DNA from: Streptococcus oralis | GTDB taxonomy: Bacteria > Bacillota > Bacilli > Lactobacillales > Streptococcaceae | NCBI RefSeq assembly: GCF_001578935.1 | Contig: NZ_KQ969521.1 | Span: 1,053,071 to 1,117,070 of the forward strand | DNA: 64,000 nt | Reading direction: 5' to 3' | Part shown: positions 24,426-58,479 of the stretch, one piece after another | Layout: each line of letters starts with the position of its first letter | How positions within the stretch are numbered: position 1 is the stretch's first letter | Program-made: the position numbers and the translations under genes | Notes under the pieces: generated by a model | What the model was told of the DNA's origin: nothing | Seen by the model: only the letters and a program-made list of their open reading frames with translations | The model's database searches: none

Positions 24426-25020
24426 AATTCTCTTTTTCCTTTTCATCAAAATCTAATATTCTGTCTCTCCAGTATTCATACTGTTTCTGTCTTAGTTCGA
24501 TTTCTTTTGGAAGACCTTCAGAAATAGAGTTGGTTAAGGTGTTGAAATTGTCAAGAATGGAGACAATTCTTTTTTGTTCAGTGAGAGGAGGCAGAACAAT
24601 TTTAAATTTTTCCATATCCTTCGAATTGATTCGGACAACTTTTGTCCCGGTCACTTTTCTTTCCTTTTGAGATTGAAACGAAATCGATCTTAGCCAATAA
24701 TTCAAGTACCGTGAATTTTGACTCGTACGAATGATATAACTATCTCCAGAAATTCCAATTTCTTCTTTTCCTTCCCAAACAATTGATTTCCCAACATCTT
24801 CAACATTTTCAGATGTTGTTGCCATTATCAAATCATTAGGATAGGCTTTTTTTAACTTTTCGAATACTATTTCACTAGTTTTAGAAAGAGTTTCAACAAC
24901 TATAAAATCGTATTTAGTGTAAATTTGTCCGTAGTGAATAACAGATTTCCCATTTTCTGTAAACTCCTTCTTCTGAAGTCCATTTCCTCTTACAAAATCA
25001 CAAATTACTCCCAACTTCAC
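24412..25020 (-). CDS. hsdS: Half-size type I specificity gene (hsdS')
   Basis: A 202-residue half specificity subunit with one target-recognition domain, starting at a GTG without a clear ribosome-binding site. The frame is open further upstream to 25089, adding [23 protein letters not shown], so it probably reads as an extension of the upstream hsdS and not as an independent gene. Its recognition domain is the same family as the first one of the upstream hsdS: both carry [37 protein letters not shown] and [20 protein letters not shown]. It ends with the conserved [17 protein letters not shown] helix. Nucleotide divergence shows the duplication is not recent. Expression alone is doubtful. 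Confidence 0.8.
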
Positions 25021-25094: not shown

Positions 25095-26297
25095 CTCAGT
25101 GTACTCGCCTTCGGCGACGAATGTCAAGAGTTTTTCTCTAAAATATTCATACTGTTTTTGGCGTAGTTCAATCTCCTTGGGAAGTCCGATGTTTAAGTCG
25201 TTACAAACCGTATCAAAGTTGTCTAGAACTTGAACAATGCGAGATTGAATTTCGAGGGAAGGGACTGGAATTTTGAATTTTTCAGTATCATTACTAGAAA
25301 TTTGTGGCATCTGCATATTATTAGCGATGTTTTGAAAATGTTCTTTATTATGAACTAAGTAATGATAAATATATCTTAAGTTGATATTTTCATTGTCTGA
25401 ACTGTATGACCAAAATTCATTTTTAAAACTAAATGGTTCTGTGCAGTATTCAAAATCAATAATTCCACGAGATTTTACAACAATTGCCTCTTCTGTGTGA
25501 ATATCTTTATCGGGAATATCTCCATAGTTCACATCAGCGTAAGTCTTTCCTCCTGCAAAGATACGGATTGGCGCACCATCTTTGTGAAGTAATTTCATCT
25601 GACTAGCTGTAATTTTAGTTCCTTTTCCTTTTTTAAGACATTCGTTCAACTTCTTCCACTCAACCTGATAAACCTCATCATCAAATGATAACAGTTTATC
25701 TCTATAAAAAGAATATTGCTTTTTACGTGAGGTCAATTCTGAGGTCAATTCTGAGGTCAATTCTGTAACATAATTGGTAAATTTGTCAAGTATTTGCACG
25801 ATTTTTTCTTGAATTTCTAGAGGTGGGATTGGAATTAAAAATTTTTCCATATCTTTAGAATTAATTCTAATTACTTTAGTCCCTGTCACTTTTCTCTCTT
25901 TCTGCTTTTGAAATTGAAAAGTTCTAAAATAATAGTTGATATACCTTGAATTCTGATTAGTCGTTAAAACATAGGAATCTCCAGAGATGCCTATTTCCTC
26001 ATCTCCCTCCCATACAATGGATTTCCCTACATCCTCTATATTTTCTGACGTCGTCGCCATAATAATATCATTAGGCTTCGCTTTTCTTAACTTACAAAAT
26101 ACACTATCATCAGTAAAAGATACAGTGGTTTTTGTCGAAAATTTATATTTTGTATATATTTGACCATAATGTATTACAGGTTTTCCTTCATCAACAAAGT
26201 CTTTCTTTTGCAACCCGTTCCCTCTATGAAATTCAACCACTTCCCCCAACTCTTTCCATTCAACAGGACAGTTTTGTATTTCTTCTAGGATGTTCAT
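25080..26297 (-). CDS. hsdS: Type I restriction-modification specificity subunit S
   Basis: A 405-residue subunit that selects the DNA target for the HsdM/HsdR complex. It has two target-recognition domains: the first from about residue 12 to 150 ([21 protein letters not shown] to INSKDMEKF), the second from about 212 to 345 ([13 protein letters not shown] to SNDTEKF), each followed by a conserved helix ([10 protein letters not shown] and [10 protein letters not shown]). Between them is a spacer with three ELTS repeats (179-190). It ends ...[15 protein letters not shown], with the stop codon inside the AGTAG tract. The start overlaps the rhuM stop as TGATG, giving coupled translation. hsdS' lies downstream with a frame offset of one unit. 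Confidence 0.93.
25729..25764 (-). repeat. Three 12-bp repeats coding ELTS in the hsdS spacer
   Basis: Three perfect tandem copies of GAGGTCAATTCT (plus-strand reading), encoding Glu-Leu-Thr-Ser three times at residues 179-190 of HsdS. In EcoR124I and EcoR124II the equivalent spacer has two or three TAEL repeats, which changes the gap in the recognised sequence by one base pair. This tract has the same unit length and position. Confidence 0.9.
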
Positions 26298-33540: not shown

Positions 33541-33573
33541 AAAAATCCGTTTGGGAAATCAAACGGATTTTTA
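33541..33573 (+). terminator. Rho-independent terminator of the VTT gene
   Basis: AAAAATCCGTTTG and CAAACGGATTTTT form a 13-bp stem around GGAAAT, beginning 6 bp after the stop codon. It closely resembles the scrK terminator at 33822-33845. Confidence 0.9.
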
Positions 33574-33659
33574 GATCATAGATAGACTATAGCCTGATAC
33601 TAAATATACTTTGGTATGGAAATCATGCCTATTTTTTGATAGTGAATCGAGGACGTACC

Positions 33660-33786
33660 TAGCCTTTCCGCCGTGATAAAAACACCTGAAATTTAATGGT
33701 TTCAGGTGTTGGGAAACTTTGAGACATTAGGCTCAAAGTTTAGGTATGGAATTTCGAAGAAAGTCGCTACCGTCCGTCATCACTTA
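33660..33786 (-). repeat. Intergenic repeat family B, copy 1
   Basis: On the minus strand this aligns with the plus strand at 58302-58420: GTGATGACGGACGG at one end and CACGGCGGAAA at the other. It can fold into an outer stem (GTGAT/ATCAC) enclosing three hairpins: ACTTTC-ttc-GAAATT, AAACTTTGAG/CTCAAAGTTT, and the 11-bp stem AACACCTGAAA/TTTCAGGTGTT. The element fills most of the spacer between the VTT gene and scrK. The stretch 33574-33659 shows no structure I can name. Confidence 0.75.
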
Positions 33787-33821
33787 AGGAAAGGCTCAAA
33801 AACATTTTCGTCAAACAAAAC

Positions 33822-33845
33822 ATCCGTTTGGTTTCCCAAGCGGAT
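33822..33845 (-). terminator. Rho-independent terminator of scrK
   Basis: ATCCGTTTGG/CCAAGCGGAT with one G-T wobble, 12 bp past the scrK stop codon, followed on the minus strand by a T-rich stretch. Confidence 0.8.
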
Positions 33846-33857
33846 ATTTTCTTTGTT

Positions 33858-58266: not shown

Positions 58267-58301
58267 AATTTCTTTAAAAGAGTTTCTTTTTATACTTTTC
58301 T

Positions 58302-58420
58302 GAAGTGGTGACGGACGTCAGCAAAGTCCTTCGGACTTTCATGACTAAAATTTGAGCCTAAGGTCTCAAATTTTCCGCAGTTGGTACAACTCCTTGTACC
58401 AACTGACACCACGGCGAAAA
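58302..58420 (+). repeat. Intergenic repeat family B, copy 2
   Basis: Aligns with the minus strand of 33660-33786. It has an outer stem GTGGTG (58305-58310)/CACCAC (58407-58412) around three hairpins: AAAGTCC-ttc-GGACTTT (58323-58339), AAAATTTGAG/CTCAAATTTT (about 58347-58374) and AGTTGGTACAA/TTGTACCAACT (58379-58404). It interrupts the yqeH-yhbY spacing, in opposite orientation to those genes. A separate imperfect hairpin, GTTAT-GGGC to GCCC-ATAAC, follows at about 58428-58464. Confidence 0.75.
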
Positions 58421-58479
58421 GTATTCGTTATGGGCTCGCAGGGCTCGCCCGAATTCAGATAACCCTTTCCTTTCTGTGT

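Follow-up and report, generated by a model that had tools for sequence, protein, structure and literature searches.

A folded intergenic repeat of Streptococcus with IS1182-family ends and duplicated terminator hairpins, probably a miniature transposon

Streptococcal genomes carry short intergenic repeats that fold and are mostly non-coding, among them BOX, RUP and SPRITE; in the accessible text of PMC3049150, BOX is modular (boxA-boxB-boxC), RUP is about 107 bp long with 27.5% GC and inverted repeats of its own, and in SPRITE a U-rich tract follows a duplex of 18 bp, the ends are AAAA/TTTT and GC is about 28%. A streptococcal sRNA, SSRC8, was detected by Northern blot and circular RACE (PMC3675131); Table 4 of that paper gives only the 3' half for its relatives in other streptococci, and the accessible parts of the paper do not describe SSRC8 as a repeat or as mobile. 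We infer that this is the RNA held in Rfam as SSRC8_2 (RF02616). Among insertion sequences, IS1272 is reported to enter terminator hairpins with partial deletion of the hairpin and no duplication, and other IS1182 members target palindromes according to a review cited in the same source (PMC4923244, accessible text); members of the IS1202 family make a 27-bp target duplication (PMC10132070, accessible text).

The repeat analysed here occurs twice in a window of 64,000 nucleotides of Streptococcus oralis. It shares the general character of BOX, RUP and SPRITE but appears, by their descriptions, to differ from them in a multi-branched core, a GC content of 33-49% among its copies and other ends; RUP differs in length and GC, and the multi-helix core, GC content and ends place the repeat outside the description of SPRITE. 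With the group of IS1182, IS1272 and TnSha1 it has more in common, namely the ends of a streptococcal IS1182-type element and terminator hairpins as targets; unlike IS1272 as far as PMC4923244 describes it, the miniature element (MITE) has no transposase and has a duplicated hairpin. It resembles IS1202 in an unusually long target duplication but not in its ends, which in two streptococcal IS1202-type copies read by eye are TGTCAATCGAAAATGAAAATGTC. In the open literature searched, including the accessible parts of PMC2828477, PMC2267715 and PMC10969869, no earlier account of a link between such a MITE, IS1182 and SSRC8 was found.

Two copies in the window and their common fold

Copy A lies on the forward strand, where the entire element, flanked by two terminator copies, occupies positions 33541-33850. 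It comprises a left terminator hairpin (33541-33572, stem 33545-33568), identified as the left target duplication from orthologous empty sites with a single terminator (L112 and L117); a left end in the form of an eroded terminal inverted repeat (33573-33588, AGATCATAGATAGACT, family form AGAAYGTAGACAAACT); an AT-rich left arm (33589-33656); the structured core (33657-33800); a right end, likewise an eroded inverted repeat (33803-33817, with the form CATTGTCTTCAATCT in the ortholog L113); and a right terminator hairpin (33817-33850, stem 33822-33845), which is the right target duplication and appeared as a terminator-like site in a scan. Within the core, the outermost helix P1 (9 bp, 33661-33669/33788-33796, GCCTTTCC/GGAAAGGC) is followed inwards by P2 (33673-33677/33779-33783, GTGAT/ATCAC), P3 (33681-33691/33700-33710, AACACCTGAAA/TTTCAGGTGTT), P4 (33714-33723/33732-33741, AAACTTTGAG/CTCAAAGTTT) and P5 (33743-33771).

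The core of copy B is on the reverse strand at 58288-58428. Its outermost 9-bp stem (ATACTTTTC/GAAAAGTAT) is the counterpart of P1 in copy A, its hairpin arms lie at 58347-58356/58365-58374 and an 11-bp stem at 58379-58389/58394-58404, and a short inner helix reads CGG/CCG in copy B and is imperfect in copy A. An extra hairpin (GGGCGAGC...GCGAGCCC) stands 5' of the core at 58432-58450 on the same strand, and some of the complete copies (L427 and L435) have a GCGAGC hairpin resembling it between the left end and the core. Copy B is sense to an operon and lies between two of its genes, which from their proteins we take to be yqeH and yhbY. Elsewhere the window also holds two 300-nt direct repeats that are 71% alike and 1235 bp apart (24584-24883 and 25819-26118).

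A first-pass annotation had compared the stretches 33660-33786 and 58302-58420, had described a closed four-helix structure of about 120 bp whose stems survive through paired base changes, and had proposed a covariance model of further copies. Such a model, R1, was built from 34 diverse copies (alignment A2), and copies A and B, which are both among these 34 sequences, score 146.9 bits (E 2.6e-37) and 139.0 bits (E 3.9e-35) with it. All the stems named in the annotation were found in the sequence and the two copies are indeed homologous; the common core, however, is 144 nt long with six helices, the outermost covarying 9-bp stem, the inner helix, the outer ends and the terminators flanking copy A had been missed, and the pair belongs to a larger family, with nine copies above 100 bits (R1) in the same genome. 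None of 200 dinucleotide shuffles folded as well as either strand of either copy (copy A, z -6.1 and -6.8; copy B, z -8.8 and -8.6). The paired changes, which further copies might have failed to show, hold in A2 against both shuffled alignments and slid partners: standard pairs make up 93.4% of pair cells compared to 73.6% after shuffling, the covariation score is 0.520 compared to 0.165 (reached by 0 of 500 shuffles; slid partners at most 0.122), and 34 of the 46 pairs given by RNAalifold have changed on both sides (compensatory). Unpaired motifs of the core are conserved as well.

Spread of the family and its relation to SSRC8_2

At least one copy was present in 255 of 284 Streptococcus genomes (R1, E <= 1e-8), and R1 matches numbered 39, 17 and 17, some of them weak, in three other genomes. 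In a sample of the whole order, 28 of 198 genomes matched, 26 of them Streptococcus; two further matches were G396, with at least 16, and G426, with two weak ones. Copy numbers from these wide searches are lower bounds, the best 11 or 16 candidates having been scored per genome. By BLAST, relatives turned up in 75 of 118 Streptococcus genomes, with dozens of candidates in some. The matches listed by a pattern scan, from which 100 of 119 loci were carried into the next step, included S. parasanguinis, S. infantis, S. mitis, S. australis, S. equinus, S. ratti, S. sobrinus and others, and also Granulicatella elegans; in Granulicatella the sequences of P1 to P3 differ and, judged by eye, the pairing is retained.

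Several variants were seen along the way. Two or three copies can cluster within 8 kb, some of them in tandem (L244 and L221 of Granulicatella elegans, and L252 and L263), and in the copy at L221:5351 the P3 palindrome is greatly lengthened. A subfamily (L143, L146, L153) has ...GGACGTTAGGTGAA... near the 3' side, and a longer core form of 168 nt exists, with 168-nt matches also in L174 and L198.

A search of the window against Rfam gave nothing at its cut-offs. When short stretches were searched, RF02616, a streptococcal sRNA that is a full-length member of the repeat family, matched both window copies at 46 and 52.7 bits (E 4.7e-12 and 3.3e-14), below its cut-off of 72 bits, and a third copy of the same genome at E 5.5e-7; beyond RF02616 these stretches gave only chance-level matches (best E 0.42). 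The family was thus half catalogued already, in that Rfam has one member of it as an sRNA and both window copies fall under the gathering score. The core aligns with model positions 132-248 of 281 on the same strand, which identifies the two as homologous, and the SSRC8 relatives with only the 3' half in the available table of PMC3675131 are consistent with the core. RF02616 is filed as an sRNA; its cut-off was passed in 31 of 279 genomes, and 240 of the 279 match at E <= 0.001, compared to the 255 of 284 genomes in which R1 found the family. In G044, which we infer to be S. pyogenes, RF02616 scores 340.8 bits over positions 1-281, a match stretching from the terminator copy on one side to that on the other, and its full-length matches in general span terminator copy to terminator copy, as complete MITEs do. 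A consensus scan found no sigma-70-like promoter in the complete copies L426 and L428, and gave three sites in the window region compared to 1.4 expected. On the minus strand of L426 (1056-1205), opposite to SSRC8_2 and about 300 bases from it, lies a match to Rfam SSRC8_1 (RF02529).

Ends, duplicated terminators and a probable IS1182-family partner

The comparison of empty and filled sites covers the locus of copy A. In L112 and L117 the locus is empty, a single terminator being all that separates the genes (45 and 42 nt), and it is filled in the window (323 nt) and in L113 (320 nt), with a terminator on both sides. Copies in the many-copy genome G038 likewise have a terminator at either side, and their flanks share a left end AGAATGTAGACAAACT and a right end that reads, as reverse complement, AGATTGAAGACAAAGT. 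Ends were then counted, allowing at most four mismatches, in 299 copies with enough flank and in 299 shuffled copies, the shuffles preserving base composition only. The right end CTTTGTCTTCAATCTG was found in 94 copies and 0 shuffled ones, and the left end in 120 copies compared to 37 shuffled ones, so that the left-end motif is weak alone; both ends were found together in 67 copies and in 0 shuffled ones. In 40 of these 67 end-bearing copies the sequence that flanks the left end recurs beyond the right end, compared to 3 of 329 mismatched pairings, and in the other 27 the outside repeat fell below threshold. On their 3' side, 56 of the 67 have a convergent gene (gene calls around copies are plain longest-ORF calls), and over the family copies occur both sense and antisense to neighbouring genes. 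From terminator copy to terminator copy the element measures about 280-320 bp. The two terminator loops of copy A, and likewise those of L427, look as if one were the inverse of the other, for which simple duplication does not account. A 57-bp stretch with an IS-type end on both sides, lying between two different hairpins near position 2717 of L139 and also in L154, is possibly a minimal end-to-end element.

A right-end match without a core, in L140, led to an insertion sequence, of which it forms the left end. This IS, present in L140 and L438, has ends CAGATTGAAGACAAAG and GTTTGTCTACGTTCTG and a 25-bp duplicated hairpin; the left and right ends of L140 as read are CAGATTGAAGACAAAGTCC and GTTTGTCTACGTTCTG, and the right end of the IS1182-type element as reverse complement is CAGAACGTAGACAAAC. 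The right end of the MITE, CAGATTGAAGACAAAG, is the left end of the IS, and the left end of the MITE, AGAAYGTAGACAAAC, is the right end of the IS; the sequence common to both is confined to about 16-18 outer bp, and the IS of L140, read through, has no core. In the copy of G038 stops interrupt the transposase, and both of its open pieces have matches to NF033551, the IS1182 model of NCBIfam (E 2.7e-67 and 4.4e-40, each piece alone being under the whole-protein cut-off of 270 bits) as well as to Pfam DDE_Tnp_1_6 and DUF772. Relatives of the transposase were found in 78 of 279 genomes, many of them uninterrupted by stops where they match; the genome of the window has no IS1182-type transposase at E <= 1e-20. 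A flanking direct repeat was present at 18 of 30 IS loci, 17 of these repeats being 18-38 bp long; 11 loci were without one, and L444 is an artefact. L448, L450, L451 and L459 have unlike hairpins at their two ends, and L445-L447 share one site. The same target with duplication thus marks 18 of the 30 IS loci and the 40 end-bearing MITE copies given above. The choice of hairpins is already known for the IS1182 family; the present analysis adds the long hairpin duplication and the structured MITE.

An IS1202-type transposase was rejected as the partner, as its long duplications fit and its ends differ. It should be noted that G026, a genome rich in copies of the structured repeat, also has IS1202-type (ISNCY) transposase genes (L159, L164) that are free of stops where they match, again with differing ends.

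Altogether, these data make it very probable that the repeats are a miniature, non-autonomous transposon of the IS1182 kind with a structured core; some of the copies in operons may have been domesticated. The first-pass annotation had left the choice between a structured RNA and a mobile non-autonomous element; the IS1182-family ends, the terminator duplications and the empty sites support the mobile element. The MITE would insert at intrinsic terminators and the hairpin would then be present on both sides, so that both neighbouring genes would keep a terminator. Because both of its ends equal those of the IS1182-family IS, the transposase of that IS is the likely mobiliser, and to judge from these shared ends it is most likely a streptococcal IS1182-family transposase that moves the MITE in trans. 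With no IS1182-type transposase in its genome at E <= 1e-20 and with the eroded ends of copy A, the window need not contain anything that still moves.

Operon copies, strand symmetry and alternative explanations

Some copies hold the same place in many species. The dnaK locus was obtained in 67 of 68 genomes (one species each), and a copy lies just upstream of dnaK in 39 of the 67, two of these being weak 30-bit matches. Ortholog groups comprise 41 copies at dnaK, 25 at yhbY, 19 at purE and 9 at the locus of copy A; both ends were found in 0 of the 85 copies of the first three groups and in 1 of 9 in the last. At these operon sites (grpE-dnaK, yqeH-yhbY and purD-purE) the ends are absent and the fold is kept. 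Copies with and without hairpin P3 occur at the same place upstream of dnaK in related genomes, which suggests that the two forms have replaced one another by recombination. In L418 (G057) two oppositely oriented copies lie upstream of dnaK (408-551 and 636-775).

Whether a fold is kept as RNA or as DNA may be read from the balance of G-U and A-C changes in its stems. Over alignments A3 and A4 (identical rows removed, 86 to 82 and 118 to 112), the pair cells are 8169 Watson-Crick, 153 G-U, 66 A-C and 189 other, and without four loop-boundary columns G-U and A-C number 106 and 66. RNase P RNA of the same genus (29 distinct rows) has 340 G-U and 4 A-C of 2890 cells, the A-C count being lowered because the structure was inferred from its own rows. 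Splitting all copies by context hardly shifted the G-U:A-C ratio (s|s 42:22, s|a 23:13, a|a 22:18, the last two together 45:31). Ortholog pairs of at least 80% identity were then counted on a fixed structure, those under 80% being excluded. One-sided changes were 38 G-U and 14 A-C in 75 operon pairs (dnaK 20:5, yhbY 11:3, purE 7:6), and 16 G-U and 17 A-C in 59 non-operon pairs, which also had 23 two-sided Watson-Crick changes; the contrast is modest (Fisher p 0.04, with pairs that are not independent). An alternative count of 55:9 is biased towards G-U, because its RNAalifold structure was derived from the rows being counted, and the fixed-structure count is the one relied on here. Among pairs at least 93% identical, paired sites were two to four times less changed than unpaired sites in every class (0.013 compared to 0.047 in end-bearing pairs, 0.011 compared to 0.036 in other non-operon pairs).

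The fold is thus kept everywhere, and a preference like that of a sense RNA is seen at dnaK and yhbY only. Paired changes by themselves are no proof of selection on RNA, and to call them the mark of selection, as the first-pass annotation did, was too strong in view of the even balance in non-operon pairs; its structured-RNA reading finds support in the counts at dnaK and yhbY and in Rfam SSRC8_2 but not in those at purE. Because G-U equals A-C outside the operons, the fold of mobile copies seems to be kept strand-symmetrically. This symmetry may come from DNA hairpins, correction of palindromes, recombination between copies or RNA from both strands, the last since many non-operon copies are flanked by genes that converge on them. 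Two operon copies at least (dnaK and yhbY) look domesticated as RNA: judging from their base changes, which resemble selection on a sense RNA, they may be elements of the mRNA that would act on processing, stability or translation of the downstream gene. In mobile copies, our best guess is that the core is a passenger or a DNA-structured part.

It is possible, although we lean against it, that the paired changes in mobile copies come from mutation (template switching that corrects imperfect palindromes) or from recombination between copies and not from selection on the fold. The stems are almost purely Watson-Crick, far from the G-U-rich pairing of RNase P RNA, and the balanced one-sided changes with 23 two-sided ones in non-operon pairs would fit such a process. 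However, the long-range helices P1 and P2, whose arms are 100-120 nt apart, covary too, unpaired motifs are conserved as well, and the G-U excess over all copies is not zero even without the loop-boundary columns. All but one of the 23 two-sided changes (22) come from pairs that are 80-93% identical, and for these an exchange with another copy is an equally good explanation; many two-sided changes can thus be put down to recombination between copies.

A second alternative, which we regard as unlikely, makes the core a folded single-stranded DNA site for transposition or recombination, attC-like or another hairpin substrate. A fold kept strand-symmetrically in non-operon copies, the roughly threefold lower change at paired sites and a partner IS that itself enters palindromes would all fit. 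Yet the IS of L140 has no core, and its transposition therefore seems not to need one; no recombinase is tied to the core, and operon copies keep the fold though they are without ends.

That the repeats are instead a host family of sRNAs or cis-acting RNAs (SSRC8), spread vertically and by recombination and with only a secondary likeness to a transposon, is very unlikely. RF02616 is filed as an sRNA and matches most genomes at the lenient threshold, the accessible text of PMC3675131 reports Northern blot and circular RACE for SSRC8, and the copies at dnaK, yhbY and purE hold their place across species, with a G-U bias at the first two; but the terminator duplication, the empty sites and the IS-shared ends speak against this reading, copies lie both sense and antisense to their neighbours, and the two complete copies scanned gave no sigma-70-like promoter. 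Since copies differ in their orientation and in the genes next to them, a strictly cis-regulatory RNA was dropped as the explanation for the whole family. Insertion after terminators is also a habit of group IIC introns, and that reading was dropped because the ends are transposon repeats.

The miniature IS1182-type transposon can, tentatively, be given a fuller history. It may be a genus-wide transposon whose multi-helix fold is kept strand-symmetrically at the DNA level, through correction of palindromes and exchange among copies, while it is mobile, and which has been captured repeatedly upstream of core genes as an mRNA element, most clearly at dnaK and yhbY, selection then falling on the sense RNA; SSRC8 would be one insertion transcribed from terminator to terminator. 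Taken together, the analysis joins three subjects that were separate in the literature searched: the SSRC8 sRNA, a covarying repeat of about nine in ten Streptococcus species examined and the hairpin-targeting IS1182 transposases. It also cautions that covariation alone does not establish RNA function in mobile palindromic DNA, for which counts of G-U and A-C changes offer a measurable contrast, and the copy upstream of dnaK provides a ready test of control over a core stress gene.
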